The notes under the pieces: generated by a model | The model's input: the letters and a program-made list of their open reading frames with translations, nothing else | Database searches by the model: none | What the model was told of the DNA's origin: nothing | In this document: piece after piece, positions 1,873 to 59,144 of the stretch | Numbering within the stretch: position 1 is the first letter of the stretch | Layout of the letters: the number at the start of each line of letters is the position of its first letter | Assembly: GCA_020853395.1 (NCBI GenBank) | Contig: JADYYY010000010.1 | Span: 434,001 to 498,000 of the forward strand | Source: Acidobacteriota bacterium | GTDB lineage: Bacteria > Acidobacteriota > Vicinamibacteria > Vicinamibacterales > SCN-69-37 | Reading direction: 5' to 3' | DNA length: 64,000 bases | Position numbers and translations under genes: made by a program

Positions 1873-1878
1873 ATTCTA
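1873..1878 (-). promoter_or_regulatory. -10 hexamer TAGAAT for the small membrane ORFs
   Basis: TAGAAT on the minus strand ends eight bases before the ATG at 1864. No good -35 is seen. A transcript starting at the usual distance would begin at or within a base or two of the start codon. Confidence 0.4.
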
Positions 1879-8881: not shown

Positions 8882-8887
8882 TACTAT
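8882..8887 (+). promoter_or_regulatory. -10 hexamer TACTAT, six bases before the AAA+ ATPase start
   Basis: TACTAT is followed by GCAGGT and then the ATG at 8894. The spacing predicts transcription beginning at or next to the start codon. There is no Shine-Dalgarno at a workable distance. Confidence 0.45.
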
Positions 8888-8893
8888 GCAGGT

Positions 8894-10417
8894 ATGGCTC
8901 TGGCTTCTTCGTTGGGTGCTCTCCAAGACGCGGTGGCGGTTGGCCGGGTCCGCCATCGTTCGGTGAAAGACGAGCTGCGTGCGAACCTGATCGCACAGTT
9001 GCGCGCCGGCCGCCAGTTGTTTCCCGGCATCGTCGGCTATGACGACACCGTCATCCCGCAAGTCGTGAACGCGATTCTGTCGCGGCACAACTTCATCCTG
9101 CTGGGCCTGCGCGGACAGGCCAAGACGCGGCTCCTCCGGGCGCTGACCGGCCTGCTCGACGAGCTCATCCCCGTCGTCCCGGGCTGCGAGCTCCACGACG
9201 ACCCGCTCGCGCCGCTGTGCGCCGAGTGCCGCGCCCGCGTCTCGACCGAAGGGCGCGACCTGCCGATCGGCTGGCTGCCGCGCGAGCACCGCTACGTCGA
9301 GAAGCTCGCGACGCCGGACGTGACGATTGCCGACATGATCGGCGACGTCGATCCGATCAAGGCCGCCCGCAGCGGCCGGCTGCTCGGCGACGAGCTGACG
9401 ATGCACTACGGCCTGCTGCCTCGCGCCAACCGGGGCATCTTCGCGATCAACGAGCTGCCGGATCTGGCCAGCAAGGTCCAGGTCGGCCTGTTCAACATCC
9501 TGCAGGAAGGCGACGTGCAGATTAAGGGCTACCCGGTGCGTCTCCGGCTCGACGTCCTGCTCGTGTTCAGCGCGAACCCCGAGGACTACACGGCCCGCGG
9601 CAAGATCATCACGCCGCTCAAGGATCGGATTGGCTCCGAGATCCGGACGCACTATCCGCGATCACGCCACGACGCGCAGCAGATCACCGCACAGGAAGCG
9701 TGGGTGGATCGTGGCATCGAGGGCCCCGGCGCCCTGCCCGTGGAGGTACCGTCGTTCGTGCGGGAGGTGATCGAGGAGGTCGCCTTCCAGGCGCGCGCCG
9801 ATCAGAAAGTGGACAAGCGATCGGGCGTCAGCCAGCGGCTGCCGATCACGGCGCTCGAGAACGTCGTGTCGAACGCCGAACGGCGCGCCCTGCTGAACGC
9901 CGAGCCGGTCGCCGTGCCGCGCGTCAGCGACATCTACGCGGCGATGCCCTCGCTGACGGGCAAGCTCGAGCTCGAGTACGAGGGAGAGCTCAAGGGCGCC
10001 GAACAGGTGGCCCGCGACCTCATTCGGCAGGCCGTCGCCACCGTGTTCGACGGCAGCTCGACGACGGTCAACACGTCGCCCGTCATCAAGTGGTTCGATC
10101 GCGGCGGCACGCTGGACCTGTCCGACGTGTCGTCCGCATCGGACCTGCTGGCGGCCGTCGCCGCCATCGACGGCCTCGCGGAGGTGGCCGCCGCGCTCGG
10201 CGGCCGGCCGCGCGATCCCGAGCCGCTGCGTGCCGCGGTCGCCGACTTCGTGCTCGAAGGGCTGTGCGCGCTGAAGAAGATCAGCCGCAGCGAGGACGGT
10301 CACCTGCACGGCACGCCGTCGCCCGCGCGCGCCCGCGGCGACGCGCGGCAGATCGACGACCTGCTCGCCGAAGACGACGAGCCGGCGTCCAAGGGCCGCA
10401 AGAAGTACTACAACTAG
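8894..10417 (+). CDS. AAA+ ATPase of the MoxR / magnesium-chelatase ChlI-like group
   Basis: The 507-residue protein has a Walker A at 71-78 (GLRGQAKT) and a Walker B-like segment IFAINELPD at 182-190, in which the usual Asp is Asn186 while Glu187 is kept. Sensor 1 fits the segment VFSANPEDY. Between the Walker motifs sits an insertion with Cys98, His101, Cys109 and Cys112 that could bind a metal. Such ATPases act with VWA-domain partners in metal insertion or complex remodelling. Here the partner is the next gene, two bases downstream. The ATG at 8894 was chosen because the long upstream extension lies over the divergent GDPD gene and a -10 sits six bases before this ATG. The substrate is unknown. 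Confidence 0.85.
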
Positions 10418-11698: not shown

Positions 11699-11715
11699 CC
11701 GGCCGCTACGGCCGG
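11699..11715. terminator. GC-rich hairpin between convergent genes
   Basis: A perfect 7-bp stem (11699-11705 with 11709-11715) encloses a three-base loop that is exactly the stop codon (TAG, read on the minus strand) of the secreted protein gene. There is no T-run, so it may act as a weak or Rho-assisted terminator for the convergent VWA gene or stabilise the minus-strand mRNA end. Confidence 0.4.
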
Positions 11716-12296
11716 TACTGCACGCGGACGTTGCTGACGATCGCCACGGGCCGGCCCGGCGTGTCGTAGGTTTCCCCGCTGGCCCGCGTCATCACTCTGA
11801 GACGCACGCCGACGATGCCGACCGTCGTCACGCCGGCGGGAATCGTGATCCGGATGGACTCGCTCGGCCCCGGGGCGACCGCAATCACGCCGCCGGGGCG
11901 CGTGCCGCCGCCGATCTGATCGAACAGATCGGCCGGCGTGCGGAACTCCCCGATGACCGCCGCGCGCGACAGCACGTCGCCGGTCGGCTGTACGATGGCC
12001 ACCATCGCTTCGTGGCGCGCGAACGTCAGCGCGCCGGGCACGATGATCGCCGGCACCGTGAAGCGATTGTGCAGCTCGAACAGCAGCGTGGCGGCGCCCG
12101 AGTGCCGCGGAATCGTGATCGCGATGCTGTCGGCCGGCGCCGCGCCGATCAGCACGTCGCAGAACGTGCGCGTCGTCTTGACGCCGGTGCCGAGCTCAGC
12201 GGCGCACGTCGCCGCGGTGCTCGTCCGGACGCTGCCCTGAGCCGGCAGCCCGGCGACGACGCTCGCGACCATCACTGCCGTCCACACGACCCGCAT
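11706..12296 (-). CDS. Secreted protein of unknown function
   Basis: The product (196 residues from the chosen ATG) starts with a signal peptide (MRVVWTAVMVASVVAGLPAQG) and continues as a beta-rich, Gly/Thr/Val-rich chain without recognisable catalytic motifs. Two cysteines (near 31 and 46) could pair in the periplasm. Two ATGs are available, at 12302 and 12296. I prefer 12296 because a TATACT -10-like hexamer lies eight bases before it, matching the spacing seen at other genes in the window, while 12302 would be only two bases from the hexamer. It converges with the VWA gene. No family was recognised. Confidence 0.65.
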   Translation of the reverse strand: MRVVWTAVMVASVVAGLPAQGSVRTSTAATCAAELGTGVKTTRTFCDVLIGAAPADSIAITIPRHSGAATLLFELHNRFTVPAIIVPGALTFARHEAMVAIVQPTGDVLSRAAVIGEFRTPADLFDQIGGGTRPGGVIAVAPGPSESIRITIPAGVTTVGIVGVRLRVMTRASGETYDTPGRPVAIVSNVRVQYRP

Positions 12297-12304
12297 GCTC
12301 ATCG

Positions 12305-12310
12305 AGTATA
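12305..12310 (-). promoter_or_regulatory. -10 hexamer TATACT before the secreted protein gene
   Basis: TATACT on the minus strand, eight bases before the ATG at 12296. No Shine-Dalgarno lies between. Confidence 0.45.
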
Positions 12311-12354: not shown

Positions 12355-12957
12355 TCACTCGTCGCCGTCGACGACGCTGGCTTCGGTCAGCCGCCGCTCG
12401 TAGGACGGCGCCTGCCGGCGATGGATGAGCTCCAGGAACTCGTGGCGCGTCCGGGCGTCGGCATGGAACACGCCCAGCATCGCGCTCGTCGTCGTCACCG
12501 CGTTCTGCTTCTCGACGCCGCGCATCGCCATGCAGAGGTGCGTCGCTTCCATGACGACCGCGACGCCGAGCGGCCGGACACGCGCCCGGATCGTCTCGGC
12601 GATCTGCAAGGTGAGCCGCTCCTGGACCTGGAGCCGGCGGGCGAAGACGTCGACCAGACGCGGCATCTTGCTCAGGCCCATCACCTTGCCGTCCGGAATG
12701 TAGGCGATGTGACACTTGCCGAAGAACGGCAGCAGGTGATGCTCGCAGAGGCTGTAGAAGTCGATGTCGCGCACGATCACCATCTCGTTGTACTCGACGG
12801 TGAACAGCGCGTTGTTGATGATGCTGTCGAGGTCGGCCGTGTATCCGCTCGTCAGGAAGCGCAAGGACTGCGCGACGCGCCGTGGGGTTTCGACGAGCCC
12901 TTCACGCGACGGGTCCTCGCCGAGCTCCGACAGCAGCCGCCGGATGATCTCCTCCAT
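12355..12957 (-). CDS. folE: GTP cyclohydrolase I (type IA)
   Basis: The 200-residue enzyme converts GTP to 7,8-dihydroneopterin triphosphate, the first step of folate (and tetrahydropterin) synthesis. Zinc and active-site residues are present in CEHHLLPF (about 71-78) and HLCMAMRG (about 140-147). Length is normal for bacterial FolE. A TACAAT hexamer ends six bases before the ATG with no Shine-Dalgarno, so the mRNA is probably leaderless. The gene stands alone between two unrelated genes on the same strand. Confidence 0.96.
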
Positions 12958-12963
12958 CCGAGG

Positions 12964-12969
12964 ATTGTA
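12964..12969 (-). promoter_or_regulatory. -10 hexamer TACAAT, six bases before folE
   Basis: TACAAT on the minus strand followed by CCTCGG and the folE ATG. The spacing predicts a transcript with essentially no 5' leader. Confidence 0.5.
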
Positions 12970-13011: not shown

Positions 13012-14004
13012 TCAGCGCCGGCCGCCGAGATTCGGCTGCGCCGCCGCGACGCCGCTCCGCAGCGCGTCCAGCGCTTCGGGCGGCACGGTAAAGGACACGT
13101 CGAGATTCGAACCCGTGCCGCGGGCCTGAACCGACTGCAGCACACTGTCGAGCCGCTGATCGCTTCCGGCCATGACGCGGGCGATCGCCAGCGCGCCGTT
13201 GACGACGCTCCGCAACGACTCGCCCGCTTCCGCGTCGCGAGTCTCGGCGCGCAGCCGGCAGTTCATCGCCTGGTCGATCGCCGCGGTCAGCGAGAACCAC
13301 TGCACGCCGTCGAGCTGAGCGCGCATGGCGCCGGGCAGGCCGGCGCGCGCGGGCATCGCATCCAGCCGTCCGACGAGCCACGCATCGCCGTCGTCGGCGA
13401 CGTCCTGCACGACGCTCATGACTGCTGTGTTGGCGGCGATGGATTCGTGGCGCTCGGCGCCCTCGATGGCGCGTTTGAGCGCGGTGAGCTGGCCGAGCCC
13501 CACGAGCCCGGGTTCGAGAAACGCCACCGCGGGCTCGTCACCCGCCGGCCCGGCCGTCCCGGCCGGATGCAGCGAGGTCAGGAGCCGCTTGCCCCGGAAC
13601 TGTTCGACGGTGGCGCCGTGCTGGGCGGCCACCGATTCGATGTGGTCTTCGTTGAACCGGCCGCGAACCAGCACGACCGGCCCGCCTCCGGCGCTCGCAG
13701 GATCGAGCCCGGCGACGATCGAGTCGATGTCGCGCTCCAGATCGATGCCCGTGTCTTCGAGCAGCCGCGCCTTCTCGTGGCCGGACGGCATCATCGCGCG
13801 AAGACGCTGGTGGAACTCCGAGTGCACGATGTGGCGCAAATCGGCGTAGCCGACCGCGGTAACGCCGGCAGGGATGTACGCGAAGTCACTGGAGGGGACG
13901 GCCCGGCTGCCCGGCTCACCGTAGTAGGCGACCAACCCGGTTCCGAGCCCAATCGCCACAACGAGCCCTGAACCGAGCAGGAAATACCGGGTCCGCGGTG
14001 TCAT
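13012..14004 (-). CDS. Membrane-anchored protein of unknown function
   Basis: The 330-residue protein has one N-terminal transmembrane segment or uncleaved signal (about 6-27) and a large extracytoplasmic domain without known catalytic motifs. The domain contains segments reading like a periplasmic alpha/beta fold (VVLVRGRFNEDHI, LLTSLHPAG, VAFLEPGLVGLG). Similar single-span proteins of about this length are, from memory, often annotated as hypothetical in Acidobacteriota. GAGGA precedes the ATG and a perfect TATAAT lies 18 bases upstream, so it is transcribed independently of the ABC genes. No function can be assigned. Confidence 0.8.
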   Translation of the reverse strand: MTPRTRYFLLGSGLVVAIGLGTGLVAYYGEPGSRAVPSSDFAYIPAGVTAVGYADLRHIVHSEFHQRLRAMMPSGHEKARLLEDTGIDLERDIDSIVAGLDPASAGGGPVVLVRGRFNEDHIESVAAQHGATVEQFRGKRLLTSLHPAGTAGPAGDEPAVAFLEPGLVGLGQLTALKRAIEGAERHESIAANTAVMSVVQDVADDGDAWLVGRLDAMPARAGLPGAMRAQLDGVQWFSLTAAIDQAMNCRLRAETRDAEAGESLRSVVNGALAIARVMAGSDQRLDSVLQSVQARGTGSNLDVSFTVPPEALDALRSGVAAAQPNLGGRR

Positions 14005-14022: not shown

Positions 14023-14028
14023 ATTATA
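14023..14028 (-). promoter_or_regulatory. -10 hexamer TATAAT upstream of the membrane-anchored protein
   Basis: A perfect TATAAT on the minus strand 18 bases before the ATG at 14004, with a Shine-Dalgarno-like GAGGA in the leader. Confidence 0.55.
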
Positions 14029-19046: not shown

Positions 19047-20168
19047 TCAGAAGATCGGCAGCGATGCGGCGGCGTTGAAGTCCGCGGGCGCGGGCGCGCC
19101 CAGCTCGAGCTTTCTCAACCCTGCGGCGGCGATCATCGCCGCGTTGTCGGTGGAGAGCGAGAGCCTCGGCACGAAGACGGGGACGCCTTCCCGCTCTCCT
19201 CTTGCCTGCGCGTCGCGCCGGAGCTGGCTGTTGGCCGACACGCCACCAGAAATGCCCACGCTCCGCGCGCCGCATTCGCGGGCGGCCTCGAACGTGCGAT
19301 CGAGCAACGTGGCGACGACGACGCGCTGGAAGCTGGCCGCGATGTCGGCCACGTCCTGTTGCGACAGCGCGGAGCCGGCGTCGGCGTCGGATCCGGGTAC
19401 TCCAGCGGCCACGCCGCGGAGCTGCAGGTGCCGGAGAACCGCCGTCTTCAACCCCGAGAAGCTGAACTCCGGAAGCGTGCGCGGCGCTCCAGCGTCGGCC
19501 GTCACGAGATCCGGCGGCGCCGCATTGCGATCCGCGTGCGTGAAGCGAGGCCGCGGCAGGTCGACGGCAGAGGGATTGCCGTCGCGCGCCAGCCGATCGA
19601 TCACGGGGCCACCTGGATAGCCGAGGCCGAGCAGCTTGGCGACCTTGTCGTAGGCCTCTCCGGCCGCGTCGTCTCTCGTCCGTCCGATCAGCCGGTAGCG
19701 GCCAGGCTCCGGCACGAGATAGAGGCTCGTGTGCCCACCCGAGACGACGAGCACCAGTGCCGGCAAGGGCAGCGGCCCGTGGTCGAGAAACAGCGACTCG
19801 ATGTGCCCGGCCAGATGGTGCACCGGCACGACTGGCTTCCCGAGCGCGGCCGCCATCGCTTTCGCGAACGAGACGCCGACGAGCAGGGCGCCGACGAGAC
19901 CCGGCCCTTGCGTCACGGCGATCGCGTCGATGTCGGCGAGCGAGCGTTCCCCCTGCTCGAGCGCCCGCTCCACGACGCCGCAGATATCACGGACGTGCTG
20001 ACGGGAGGCGATCTCCGGCACGACGCCTCCCCACTCGCGGTGGATGTCGGCCTGCGACGCGATCACGTTCGATCGGATCCGCCACGGCCGGTCGGCATCT
20101 CCCGTGGACTCGACGATCGCGGCCGCCGTCTCGTCGCACGACGTCTCGATGCCGAGCACCGCCGTCAC
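19047..20168 (-). CDS. tsaD: tRNA N6-adenosine threonylcarbamoyltransferase
   Basis: The 373-residue enzyme installs threonylcarbamoyl on A37 of ANN-decoding tRNAs (t6A). The family motifs are seen: GIETSCDET at the start, HHLAGHIES (about 110, Fe/Zn ligands), SGGHTSLY and the C-terminal STDNAAMIA. It has no upstream ATG; the GTG at 20168 overlaps the mtnA stop and immediately precedes the conserved start, so it was chosen. A longer reading extends into mtnA and was rejected. Partners TsaB, TsaC and TsaE are not in the window. Confidence 0.96.
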
Positions 20169-21235
20169 ACGGCGTCCCCGACCTCGCGTCGCGTCCCGGC
20201 GAAGAGCGCCGGCAGGCTCTCGGCGAACGGCGGCCGCGCAATGCCTTTCTCGGTGATGATGCCGGCGATGAGGTGAGCCGGCGTCACGTCGAATGCCGGG
20301 TTCCACACCGACGCGCCCTCGGGCACGACCCTAGCCGGGCCCGCGTGCGTCATCTCGCGCGCGGGCCGTTCTTCGATGGGAATGCGATCGCCGCTCGGTG
20401 TCCCCAGATCGATGGTGGACAGCGGGGCGGCGACGTAGAACGGCACGTCGTGCGCCCTGGCCAGGAGCGCGACCGTATAGGTGCCGATCTTGTTGGCGGC
20501 ATCGCCGTTCGCCGCGATGCGGTCTGCACCGACGACGACGACGTCGACCTGGCCGCGTCGCATCAGGGGCCCGGCCATGCTCTCGGCGATGACGGTCGTC
20601 GGCACACCGTCGCGCACCAGTTCCCAGGCGGTCAGCCGCGCGCCTTGCAGGAAGGGCCGGGTCTCGTCGGCATACACCTGCGTGATCCTGCCTCGCTCGG
20701 CAGCGGCGCGGATGACGCCGAGCGCGGTGCCGTAGCCTGCCGTCGCGAGCGCGCCGGCATTGCAGTGAGTCAGCACGCGGCCGGTCGGCGGCACGATGTC
20801 GGCGCCGAATCGCCCCATGTCGCGGCAGCTCTGGACGTCTTCGTCGTGGATGGCGAGCGCCTCCCGCTCCAGGCGGGACGCAAGCTCCTCGACCGACTGG
20901 CCGGCCTGCGCCCCCTCGGCGAATGCCGCCTTCATGCGGTCGATCGCCCAGAACAGGTTGACGGCGGTCGGACGGGTCCGGGCCATCAGCTCGCACTGCT
21001 TGTTGAACTCGACGGCCAACTGCCGCGTGCCCTGCGCCCGGCTCTTGCGCACGCCGAGCGCGAGGCCCATCGCGGCGGCGACGCCGATGGCCGGCGCGCC
21101 GCGGATGACCATCGTCTTGATCGCGCGGGCGACCTCGGCGGGCGTCCGGCAGTGTACGTAACGTTCCTCGCCGGGCAGCTTGCGCTGATCGACCATCACG
21201 ACGGCGTCACGCTGCCACTCGATCGTCGGGAGCAT
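20165..21235 (-). CDS. mtnA: Methylthioribose-1-phosphate isomerase
   Basis: The 356-residue enzyme isomerises 5-methylthioribose 1-phosphate to 5-methylthioribulose 1-phosphate in methionine salvage. It belongs to the eIF2B-like fold: the RGAPAIG loop near residue 46, the catalytic Cys in HCNAGALAT (about 160), and the Asp in ADRIAANGD (about 240). Immediately upstream is a purine nucleoside phosphorylase, which could supply the ribose 1-phosphate product. The promoter is the clearest in the window: TTGAGA, 17 bases, TATCAT, then six bases to the ATG. The -35 lies on the punA stop codon. Confidence 0.95.
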
Positions 21236-21241
21236 CGACCG

Positions 21242-21270
21242 ATGATAAGGAAACCGCGGGGCCTTCTCAA
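21242..21270 (-). promoter_or_regulatory. Complete promoter of mtnA (TTGAGA-17-TATCAT) predicting a leaderless mRNA
   Basis: On the minus strand TTGAGA (21270-21265) is followed by a 17-base spacer and TATCAT (21247-21242), then CGGTCG and the ATG. The -35 overlaps the stop codon of punA, so mtnA has its own promoter embedded at the end of the previous gene. Confidence 0.6.
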
Positions 21271-23416: not shown

Positions 23417-23424
23417 AGTATAGT
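23417..23424. promoter_or_regulatory. Overlapping divergent -10 elements
   Basis: The eight bases AGTATAGT read TATAGT on the plus strand (23419-23424) and TATACT on the minus strand (23422-23417). The two -10 hexamers share four base pairs. The plus one lies eight bases before the TTG of the 149-residue membrane protein; the minus one serves nupC. Confidence 0.5.
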
Positions 23425-23897: not shown

Positions 23898-23903
23898 TAG
23901 AAT
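23898..23903 (+). promoter_or_regulatory. -10 hexamer TAGAAT upstream of the phosphatase operon
   Basis: TAGAAT lies 22 bases before the GTG at 23926; a GGAG at 23916-23919 lies six bases before that GTG. The unit downstream is a chain of overlapping genes, so this would be the operon promoter. Confidence 0.45.
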
Positions 23904-28782: not shown

Positions 28783-28788
28783 AGTATA
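28783..28788 (-). promoter_or_regulatory. -10 hexamer TATACT for the small secreted protein
   Basis: TATACT on the minus strand, 20 bases before the ATG at 28762, with GGGGAGG in between acting as the Shine-Dalgarno. Confidence 0.5.
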
Positions 28789-42330: not shown

Positions 42331-42336
42331 AGTATA
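42331..42336 (-). promoter_or_regulatory. -10 hexamer TATACT upstream of sppA
   Basis: TATACT on the minus strand, 19 bases before the chosen GTG at 42311, with AGGAG between. The promoter is inside the gap after the SMP-30 gene. Confidence 0.5.
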
Positions 42337-46850: not shown

Positions 46851-48290
46851 TCAGGCGCTCAGCCTGAACAACAGCGCGGCAATCAAGGTCGGCACCGCGG
46901 CGCCGGCGAGCAAGCGATGCGGCGCGACGGACCCGCCGAAGAACCGGCTGAGCAGCGCCTGTCCGGCAGGATTCGGGGCATTGGCGATGACGGTCAGGCC
47001 GCCGCCCGTGACGGCGCCTTGCACCACCGCGATCTTCAGGGCGTCGTGGAAGCCTGGCGCGAGCGTGGCCAGGTAGGTGATGAGGGCGTTGTCGTTGAAC
47101 GCCGTCAGCACCGTGGCGCCGAGGAACAGCGGGAATTCGGCCAGGCTCGACAGCACTGGCGCGATCCACCAGCCCTGCAGGCCGCCGTGGATCACGAGGC
47201 CGCCGAGAAAGAACCCGACGAGCAGCGGTGCGCGCAACTCGAGCCGGCTTTGAAACACGGCCGTCGCCTTCGCGAACCCGAGGAAGAACAGGAACCCGCC
47301 GACGAAGAGCGCCGGCTCGTGCGCCGTGAACACCGTCCAGCCCATGAACGCCACGTGGACGGCCGTGATCCACGCGGGCACTGGCAGCAGCGTTTGGGCC
47401 CTCCGCGGCGCCGCCTCGTCGGGTTCTTCGAGATCGAGCGTCGCGAGGCGCCGATTGAGCGCCAGCAGTTCGCGCCGGAACAGCAGGAAGTAGAGCGCGG
47501 TGGACGCGACGATCGCCGCGAACGCCCCGGCGCCGAAGTGCACGAGCATGAAGGGCGTATCCCAAGCCCACACGCGGGCGACCATCAGCACGGGCGGCGC
47601 CGAGAAGTGCGTGAGCGTGCCGCCAATCGAGACGTTGACGAAGAGCAGCCCGAGCGTCGCGTACTTCAGCGCCGGCGTGGGATCGAGATCGTAGAATTGG
47701 CGCGCGAGGAGCAGCGCGCAGATCGTCATCGCCGCCGGCTCGGTGATGAACGATCCGAGCAGCGGACCGAGGACGAGAATCGTCGCCCACCATGCCGCGG
47801 GCCCTCCCCCGCCGAGGTTGGCGATCCGCCGCAGCAGGCGTTCGGCCAGCCCCACGATCGGCCTCGTGGACGCGAGCGCCATGATGACGACGACGAACAT
47901 CGGCTCGGTGTAGGTGACACCGTGCGCGACGTAGTCACGGGCGGCGTCCCAGCCCTTGGCGTACGCCGCGGCGGCCAGCAGCACGGCCGCCCACAGGCCG
48001 AACACGACCTCGACCTCGCCGGCAAGGTGCAGCAGCTCGGCCAGCACGCTCGGATGCGCCGAGCGGCCCGCGGCCCGTTCGGCTTCGTCGTGGGCGCGCT
48101 GCACGCGGTGCGCGAGCCCGCTGAGCCGGGACGCGGCGAACGTGTGCAGGATGGCGACGACGAAGATCGCGGTCGCAATCAGGTTGAAGGGATCCGCCGC
48201 GATGCGCGCGCCGAGCGTCTCGAGCAACGCGCGCCCGCGATCGTCGTACGCGTCGAGCGGCAGCGGAAACGACGTAGCGGCGGCAGGCAC
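46851..48290 (-). CDS. Putative Na+/H+ antiporter (Na_H_antiport_3-like)
   Basis: The 479-residue inner-membrane protein has about 11 hydrophobic helices, with AGEVEVVFGLW, FVNVSIGGTLTHFSAPPV and TAFNDNALITYLA as the charged/polar conserved segments expected for a family of putative sodium/proton antiporters. It starts with GTG four bases after the stop of the upstream secreted-protein gene, so the two are co-transcribed. Ion specificity is not shown by the sequence. Confidence 0.78.
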   Translation of the reverse strand: MPAAATSFPLPLDAYDDRGRALLETLGARIAADPFNLIATAIFVVAILHTFAASRLSGLAHRVQRAHDEAERAAGRSAHPSVLAELLHLAGEVEVVFGLWAAVLLAAAAYAKGWDAARDYVAHGVTYTEPMFVVVIMALASTRPIVGLAERLLRRIANLGGGGPAAWWATILVLGPLLGSFITEPAAMTICALLLARQFYDLDPTPALKYATLGLLFVNVSIGGTLTHFSAPPVLMVARVWAWDTPFMLVHFGAGAFAAIVASTALYFLLFRRELLALNRRLATLDLEEPDEAAPRRAQTLLPVPAWITAVHVAFMGWTVFTAHEPALFVGGFLFFLGFAKATAVFQSRLELRAPLLVGFFLGGLVIHGGLQGWWIAPVLSSLAEFPLFLGATVLTAFNDNALITYLATLAPGFHDALKIAVVQGAVTGGGLTVIANAPNPAGQALLSRFFGGSVAPHRLLAGAAVPTLIAALLFRLSA

Positions 48291-50044: not shown

Positions 50045-50050
50045 TAGAAT
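50045..50050 (+). promoter_or_regulatory. -10 hexamer TAGAAT, seven bases before udk
   Basis: TAGAAT is followed by CCGCCCG and the udk ATG at 50058. A partly matching -35 (GTCACA) lies 18 bases upstream. No Shine-Dalgarno is present, so the mRNA is probably leaderless. Confidence 0.5.
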
Positions 50051-50057
50051 CCGCCCG

Positions 50058-50675
50058 ATGCCTCTGATCGTCGGCGTGGCGGGCGGGTCTGGCAGCGGCA
50101 AGACGACGCTCGTCGGCCGCCTGCTCGAACGGCTCGGCCCCGATGCCGTCGTCATCGTCCAGCACGATCGGTACTATCGCGATCTGTCGAACATCCCCTT
50201 CGACGATCGCGTCCAGCGGAACTTCGACCATCCGGACGCGCTGGACACGACGCTGCTCGTCACCCACCTCGAGCAGCTCCGTGGCGGCGCGCGCGCCGAG
50301 ATCCCAATCTACGACTTCGCCCGTCATGCTCGCACGCGTGAGGTGGAGGTCATCCACCCACGCCCCGCGATTGTCATCGAAGGAATCCTCGTGCTCTCGG
50401 ATGTCCGCCTGCGGTCGTTGATCGATTTGAAAGTGTTCGTGGACGTGGACAGGACGACTCGACTGCGGCGACGGGTCCAGCGGGACGTCGCGGAACGTGG
50501 GCGGTCGGTGGCGTCGGTGGAGGAGCAGTTCGCCGCGACCGTCGCGCCCATGCACGACACCTACGTCGAACCGGCGCGCCGGTACGCCGACGTGATCGTC
50601 GAACGCGGCGGCTTCAACGAGGTCGCGCTCGAACACCTCGTCGCGGCGATCAACGAACGGATCGACCTGGGTTGA
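50058..50675 (+). CDS. udk: Uridine kinase
   Basis: The 205-residue enzyme phosphorylates uridine and cytidine for pyrimidine salvage. It has the P-loop GGSGSGKTT at 10-18, HDRYYRD (near 35), the substrate loop YDFARH, and IEGILV. It ends with a normal C-terminus. The ATG at 50058 is the only start consistent with the P-loop; the upstream extension overlaps the tRNA gene on the other strand. Its promoter-like hexamer is seven bases before the ATG. Confidence 0.94.
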   Translation: MPLIVGVAGGSGSGKTTLVGRLLERLGPDAVVIVQHDRYYRDLSNIPFDDRVQRNFDHPDALDTTLLVTHLEQLRGGARAEIPIYDFARHARTREVEVIHPRPAIVIEGILVLSDVRLRSLIDLKVFVDVDRTTRLRRRVQRDVAERGRSVASVEEQFAATVAPMHDTYVEPARRYADVIVERGGFNEVALEHLVAAINERIDLG

Positions 50676-58634: not shown

Positions 58635-58640
58635 ACAGGC

Positions 58641-58670
58641 GGAGACGCCGCGATGCGGCGTCTCCGGTTT
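58641..58670 (+). terminator. Terminator hairpin after glgP
   Basis: A perfect 11-bp GC-rich stem (58641-58651 with 58655-58665) encloses GAT and is followed by GGTTT. The T-run is short, but it is the only strong hairpin at the gene end. Confidence 0.6.
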
Positions 58671-58672
58671 CA

Positions 58673-58678
58673 TATAAT
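58673..58678 (+). promoter_or_regulatory. Perfect -10 TATAAT, seven bases before the next ATG
   Basis: TATAAT is followed by TCCTCGA and the ATG at 58686. It lies directly after the glgP terminator. The spacing predicts a leaderless transcript. The clearest -10 of that type in the window. Confidence 0.6.
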
Positions 58679-58685
58679 TCCTCGA

Positions 58686-59144
58686 ATGGCCCGAAAGACC
58701 GCCGAACGTGTCCGCTGTGCGCTCTGTGGCGCGAAGGACGTCTCCGAACCCCGCGGCGACGAGCGCTACTGCCACGAGTGCTGGGACAAGAAGATCGCCG
58801 TCGAGGACATCGTCGCGCGCGAGTTCACGCTGAAGCGCTACATCCGCGCGCACAGCGCCGAGAAGTACCTCGTCTATCATTCGACGCAGAAACGCCCCGT
58901 CGGCCAGGTGCAGGTGATCGACGACGGCTTCGACCTCTTCCTGACGGTGCTGCTCTACCCGACGTTCGTCTGGGACGACGAGGCGTATCACCTGGAGAAC
59001 GACCCGGAGCACCGCAGCTTCGCCGAAATCCTCGTCGACGTGGTCGCCGCCGACGTCATCGAGCCGTGGGGCGGCGGCAAATGGCACCTCGAGGTCTTCC
59101 GATCCACGGCGTCCGAGCCGGACGACTGGAACGGCGAGATGTGA
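58686..59144 (+). CDS. Zinc-ribbon-containing protein of unknown function
   Basis: The 152-residue protein begins with a possible zinc ribbon: CALCG (Cys12 and Cys15) and CHEC (Cys31 and Cys34) spaced by 15 residues. The remaining 115 residues are a mixed alpha/beta domain with acidic and aromatic residues (LFLTVLLYPTFVWDDEAYHLE, split here) and a WGGGKWHLEVF end. No membrane segment. No family recognised. It stands between glgP and an M24 peptidase, each with its own signals. Confidence 0.7.
   Translation: MARKTAERVRCALCGAKDVSEPRGDERYCHECWDKKIAVEDIVAREFTLKRYIRAHSAEKYLVYHSTQKRPVGQVQVIDDGFDLFLTVLLYPTFVWDDEAYHLENDPEHRSFAEILVDVVAADVIEPWGGGKWHLEVFRSTASEPDDWNGEM

Follow-up and report, generated by a model that had tools for sequence, protein, structure and literature searches.

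Our analysis of a genome of the Vicinamibacterales indicates that a distinct class of its genes is transcribed from sigma-70-type promoters whose -10 element lies 6–9 nucleotides (nt) before the start codon, an arrangement that would give leaderless mRNAs; we put the probability of this reading at a little above nine in ten. The Vicinamibacterales are soil Acidobacteriota, abundant and poorly cultured. The stretch of 64,000 nt analyzed here (the window; GC content 69.8%) comes from a nearly complete genome of 4.28 Mb. A positional peak of the -10 motif, a contrast in Shine-Dalgarno (SD) sequences and conservation of the layout in orthologues were all observed directly.

The preliminary description of the window had listed eight -10-like hexamers at close spacing before start codons, none with an SD sequence, and four at larger spacing, each with one. 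Read directly from the window, the hexamers and spacings of all twelve sites were found as described and on the correct strands, and every statement on SD sequences held. The close-spaced sites and associated features are as follows.

1873–1878, minus strand: -10-like TAGAAT, 8 nt before ATG 1864; a weak case
8882–8887, plus strand: -10 TACTAT, 6 nt before ATG 8894; gene 8894–10417, AAA+ chelatase-like ATPase
12305–12310, minus strand: -10 TATACT, 8 nt before ATG 12296 (gene 11706–12296)
12964–12969, minus strand: -10 TACAAT, 6 nt before ATG 12957; gene 12355–12957, folE (GTP cyclohydrolase I)
21242–21247, minus strand: -10 TATCAT, 6 nt before ATG 21235 of mtnA (20165–21235)
23419–23424, plus strand: -10-like TATAGT, 8 nt before TTG 23433; a weak case
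50045–50050, plus strand: -10 TAGAAT, 7 nt before ATG 50058 of the uridine kinase gene (50058–50675)
58640–58666, plus strand: terminator-like hairpin of 12 bp, which ends the upstream glucan phosphorylase gene and occupies the expected -35 place
58673–58678, plus strand: -10 TATAAT, 7 nt before ATG 58686; conserved in orthologues
58686–59144, plus strand: gene of a 152-amino-acid protein (P0001), predicted to be leaderless

The gene caller combined a 3-periodic coding model with a slight preference among start codons and used neither promoter nor SD motifs. A total of 1309 genes were obtained from 1.63 Mb of the source genome, among them 860 first genes (no co-directional gene closely upstream) and 427 operon-internal genes. 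As the null model, the 60 nt upstream of each first gene were shuffled with dinucleotides preserved (200 runs). The sharp genome-wide peak predicted for the distance from TANNNT to the start codon appeared in this sample at 6–8 nt, where 87 of the 860 first genes carry the motif against a shuffle mean of 8.3 (maximum 16). The peak is sharp and highest at 6 nt, and ten other 3-nt windows contain 9–20 matches each in the same genes. Without the window itself, 82 first genes remain at 6–8 nt, and other 3-nt windows average 15. The motif TANNNT is fixed at three positions only, and intergenic sequence has a higher AT content than coding sequence, both of which favour hexamers arising as chance matches just before starts; the excess over dinucleotide shuffles, the position-specific maximum at 6 nt and the conservation of this position in orthologues despite unrelated remaining upstream DNA make such an origin very improbable. 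A chance origin of the class was rejected by the shuffles, by the other 3-nt windows and by internal in-frame ATG/GTG codons, which are preceded likewise by TANNNT in 0.16% of cases (smaller sample).

The peak was also found in a second sample, 0.40 Mb of the complete 7.48 Mb genome of a relative from a different family of the same order, with 15 genes at 6–8 nt against 2.2 by shuffle (maximum 6). The same pipeline revealed no peak in Escherichia coli (2 against 5.0 expected), and on plasmid 2 of Deinococcus deserti it gave a peak at 5–8 nt, where 6 of the 73 first genes carry the motif and 1.1 would be expected.

Start calls are error-prone at high GC, and at 8894 and 23433 the start favoured by coding potential differed from that of the preliminary description, leaving room for genuine -10 boxes followed by an ordinary leader and a downstream initiation codon. 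In a control independent of called starts, any ATG/GTG 6–9 nt after TANNNT near a gene start was counted by frame; 131 first genes were found in frame against 11 and 7 in the two out-of-frame counts. Start codons at the exact distance are thus enriched in frame and not out of frame, and a start-call artefact was rejected by this test. Furthermore, for 58686, folE and mtnA the alignment of the orthologous proteins begins at residue 1, the orthologues of 8894 retain the upstream ATG together with its -10 element, and SD sequences are depleted in the class. Misplaced starts are therefore a very improbable account of the class, only slightly less so than chance matches.

In-frame counts at larger distances amount to about 8–16 per nt; chance may thus account for perhaps a third of the 131 in-frame cases, which leaves an excess of roughly 90 genes, about 10% of the first genes. 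The close-spaced layout would accordingly be used by at least about 10% of first genes, with about 15% as the upper figure; most other genes probably have leaders, often with an SD sequence. The proposal of widespread leaderless mRNAs is supported, with the qualification that the class is a minority, about 10–15% of first genes by the strict motif. As that motif recovers only 8% of D. deserti first genes, it under-counts, and 10–15% is a lower estimate.

Analysis of start codons revealed GTG in 32 of the 99 genes of the leaderless-like class (-10 at 6–9 nt), a share close to that in the other genes of this genome and to what is reported for Mycobacterium tuberculosis (PMC3898074). Before TTG there was little enrichment of a close -10 element. 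The -10 element lies at exactly 6 nt in 18 of the 32 GTG-start genes and in 23 of the 68 ATG-start genes of this class; the stronger preference of GTG for the exact 6-nt spacing is suggestive only (Fisher p = 0.049).

Within the hexamers, positions 4 and 5, which were not part of the selection, are occupied by adenine in 53% and 56% of cases against 16% in the background, as in sigma-70 promoters. At least four of six matches to a -35 TTGACA at 15–20 nt spacing were found in 26% of cases against 14% of controls; this weak signal is compatible with sigma-70 promoters and is not proof of them. The element stands close to the start codon and takes the place of the SD sequence, as would also an AU-rich ribosome-binding element of the kind found in Bacteroidetes, that is, a translation signal in place of a promoter. 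Such a signal should be needed equally in operon-internal genes, whereas TANNNT at 6–9 nt occurs in 99 of 860 first genes and in 8 of 427 operon-internal genes (Fisher p = 1e-10). The element moreover has the form of a -10 box (TAnAAT), and many orthologues of 58686 show a TGn extended -10 ahead of the hexamer. These features leave a translation signal with very little probability and favour a promoter. In the window, the operon-internal gene at 46851–48290 (minus strand, 4-nt gap) starts with GTG, and TACGCT lies 6 nt ahead of this codon; the hexamer may be a leaderless promoter inside the operon or a chance match.

Comparison of SD-like tetramers 4–20 nt before the start revealed frequencies of 8% in the leaderless-like class, 31% among the remaining first genes and 40% in operon-internal genes, against 16–17% in shuffles. 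The depletion in the 6–9 nt class relative to the remaining first genes is significant (Fisher p = 3e-7), and in SD-bearing first genes the -10 matches are few at 6–8 nt and peak broadly around 21–32 nt. The two-class pattern proposed for the window, with SD sequences depleted behind close -10 elements and enriched among the remaining first genes, is thus found across the 1.63 Mb sample. The 16S gene runs off its contig end, and the expected 3' tail (anti-SD) was not found there. The four leadered contrast genes of the window, whose SD sequences were verified, are as follows.

14023–14028, minus strand: TATAAT, 18 nt before ATG 14004, SD AGAGGA; within a probable ECF-type promoter (CGAAC, spacer, CGTATA)
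23898–23903, plus strand: TAGAAT, 22 nt before GTG 23926, SD CGGAG
28783–28788, minus strand: TATACT, 20 nt before ATG 28762, SD GGGGAGG
42331–42336, minus strand: TATACT, 19 nt before GTG 42311, SD AGGAG

These examples stand as a leadered contrast, with the reservation that 14004 probably does not have a sigma-70 promoter. Its orthologues keep the -10 element at about 17–24 nt together with an AGAGG-like SD sequence, and a GGAAC-like element followed after 15–19 nt by a CGTATA-like element was found in 25 of 30 sequences of this gene across the order against 0.08 by shuffle; the pattern was written after the sequences had been seen, so the exact ratio is optimistic, and the match is extensive. 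In the genome sample the pattern occurs in only 4 of the 860 first genes. The promoter motifs make an ECF-type promoter more likely than a sigma-70 one at 14004, which corrects one SD example of the four and leaves the two-class conclusion unaffected. The protein of this gene (13012–14004, minus strand) has an N-terminal hydrophobic stretch and matched no confident Pfam family.

Conservation was analyzed most extensively for the gene at 58686. Its product has zinc-ribbon-like CxxC motifs near the N-terminus; no confident Pfam or NCBIfam family was found for it, only a weak zinc-ribbon similarity. The protein is highly conserved across Vicinamibacterales (73–88% identity in the 80 orthologous loci fetched), and in a 60-genome phylum sample the gene was found within the order only, and in none of the 55 genomes outside it. 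Among the 79 loci with enough upstream DNA, 73 have TAnnnT 6–9 nt before the start, against 2.1 by shuffle (maximum 5). The remaining upstream DNA is unalignable, with a median ungapped identity of 29%. Adenine occupies positions 4 and 5 of the orthologous hexamers in 77% and 89% of cases, and the TGn extension is enriched. Perfect stems of at least 8 bp were found in 5 of 77 orthologous upstream regions against 1.2 by shuffle; given this low number, the hairpin at 58640–58666 is no general feature of the promoters of this gene.

The layout is also kept, to different degrees, at other close-spaced sites. In 20 of 29 folE orthologues the spacing of the hexamer is exactly 6 nt; the exceptions come mostly from a single genus of the same family, in which the layout has been lost. 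Among 30 folE loci outside the order, many with uncertain N-termini, no aligned start had TANNNT at 6–9 nt, and in folE the layout thus appears confined to Vicinamibacterales. The hexamer lies at 6–9 nt in 20 of 29 mtnA orthologues. For 8894, it lies 6–10 nt before the upstream ATG in 25 of 29 orthologues and at 5 nt in three more, with no out-of-frame placement among the 29; since the orthologues keep this ATG with its -10 element, the start is 8894 and not 8963, the choice of coding potential. The uridine kinase orthologues are mixed (7 of 20 at 6–9 nt) and their N-terminus is variable. The product of 11706–12296 is probably a secreted protein; the N-terminus of its orthologues is likewise variable, and by eye several have TATAMT 6–7 nt before a start codon. 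The two weak cases may be chance matches. The open reading frame at 1864 encodes only 47 amino acids and has a marginal coding score, and TTG 23433 is doubtful because coding potential favours the in-frame start 23445 and TTG starts are little enriched.

Transcription by RNA polymerase begins about 7 nt past the -10 element, so that an mRNA from a close-spaced promoter would begin at the start codon or within a few nt of it; predicted in this way from motif positions, leaders of 1–5 nt are indistinguishable from none. Translation would then proceed without SD contact, through recognition of the 5'-terminal start codon, a mode described in other bacteria (PMC9031893). At 58686, folE, mtnA and 8894 the -10 element would have stayed 6–9 nt from the ATG as all other upstream DNA was replaced, and purifying selection may thus maintain leaderlessness as a trait of particular genes throughout the order. 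We propose this reading tentatively, at somewhat less than even odds.

No map of transcription start sites (TSSs) and no study of leaderless genes was found for Vicinamibacterales in the open-licence literature. The three Acidobacteria genomes of an earlier survey reportedly belong to other classes, and Vicinamibacterales is not known to be among them. In that survey, leaderless genes were predicted in all three genomes, the only ones available for Acidobacteria at the time, with a mean of 13.3% of genes (9.7–19.4), and the signal shared by its TA-led genes was TANNNT about 10 nt before the start, without an SD sequence (Zheng et al. 2011; PMC3160421). Compared with that work, the present analysis concerns Vicinamibacterales and adds conservation at the level of orthologues; folE was seen outside the order at 30 loci only, and for phylum-wide extent we therefore rely on Zheng et al. 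2011. In Mycobacterium tuberculosis, about a quarter of primary TSSs lie at the start codon (Cortes et al. 2013; PMC3898074). That genome resembles the one analyzed here in its high GC, in the use of both ATG and GTG and in having SD genes as the complementary class, and differs in that its TSSs were mapped, while our lower strict-motif fraction (about 10–15% of first genes) comes from sequence only. Leaderless mRNAs are experimentally known in D. deserti, for up to about 60% of genes (reviewed in PMC9031893), and the -10 placement there is the same as here. Leaderless transcription was predicted in 21.6% of bacterial species (Lomsadze et al. 2018, cited in PMC9581028).

The phenomenon is therefore already known; new in this study are the lineage, the controls independent of start annotation and the conservation per gene across the order. 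The result adds Vicinamibacterales to the comparative study of leaderless translation. It also affects gene-start annotation, as SD-based callers will misplace starts of the leaderless class. What most merits further work is the conservation of the layout in individual genes, and with the orthologue sets one can ask whether selection favours leaderlessness in a particular gene. If it is indeed a selected, gene-specific trait, this would suggest a use of leaderless translation itself as a regulatory class.
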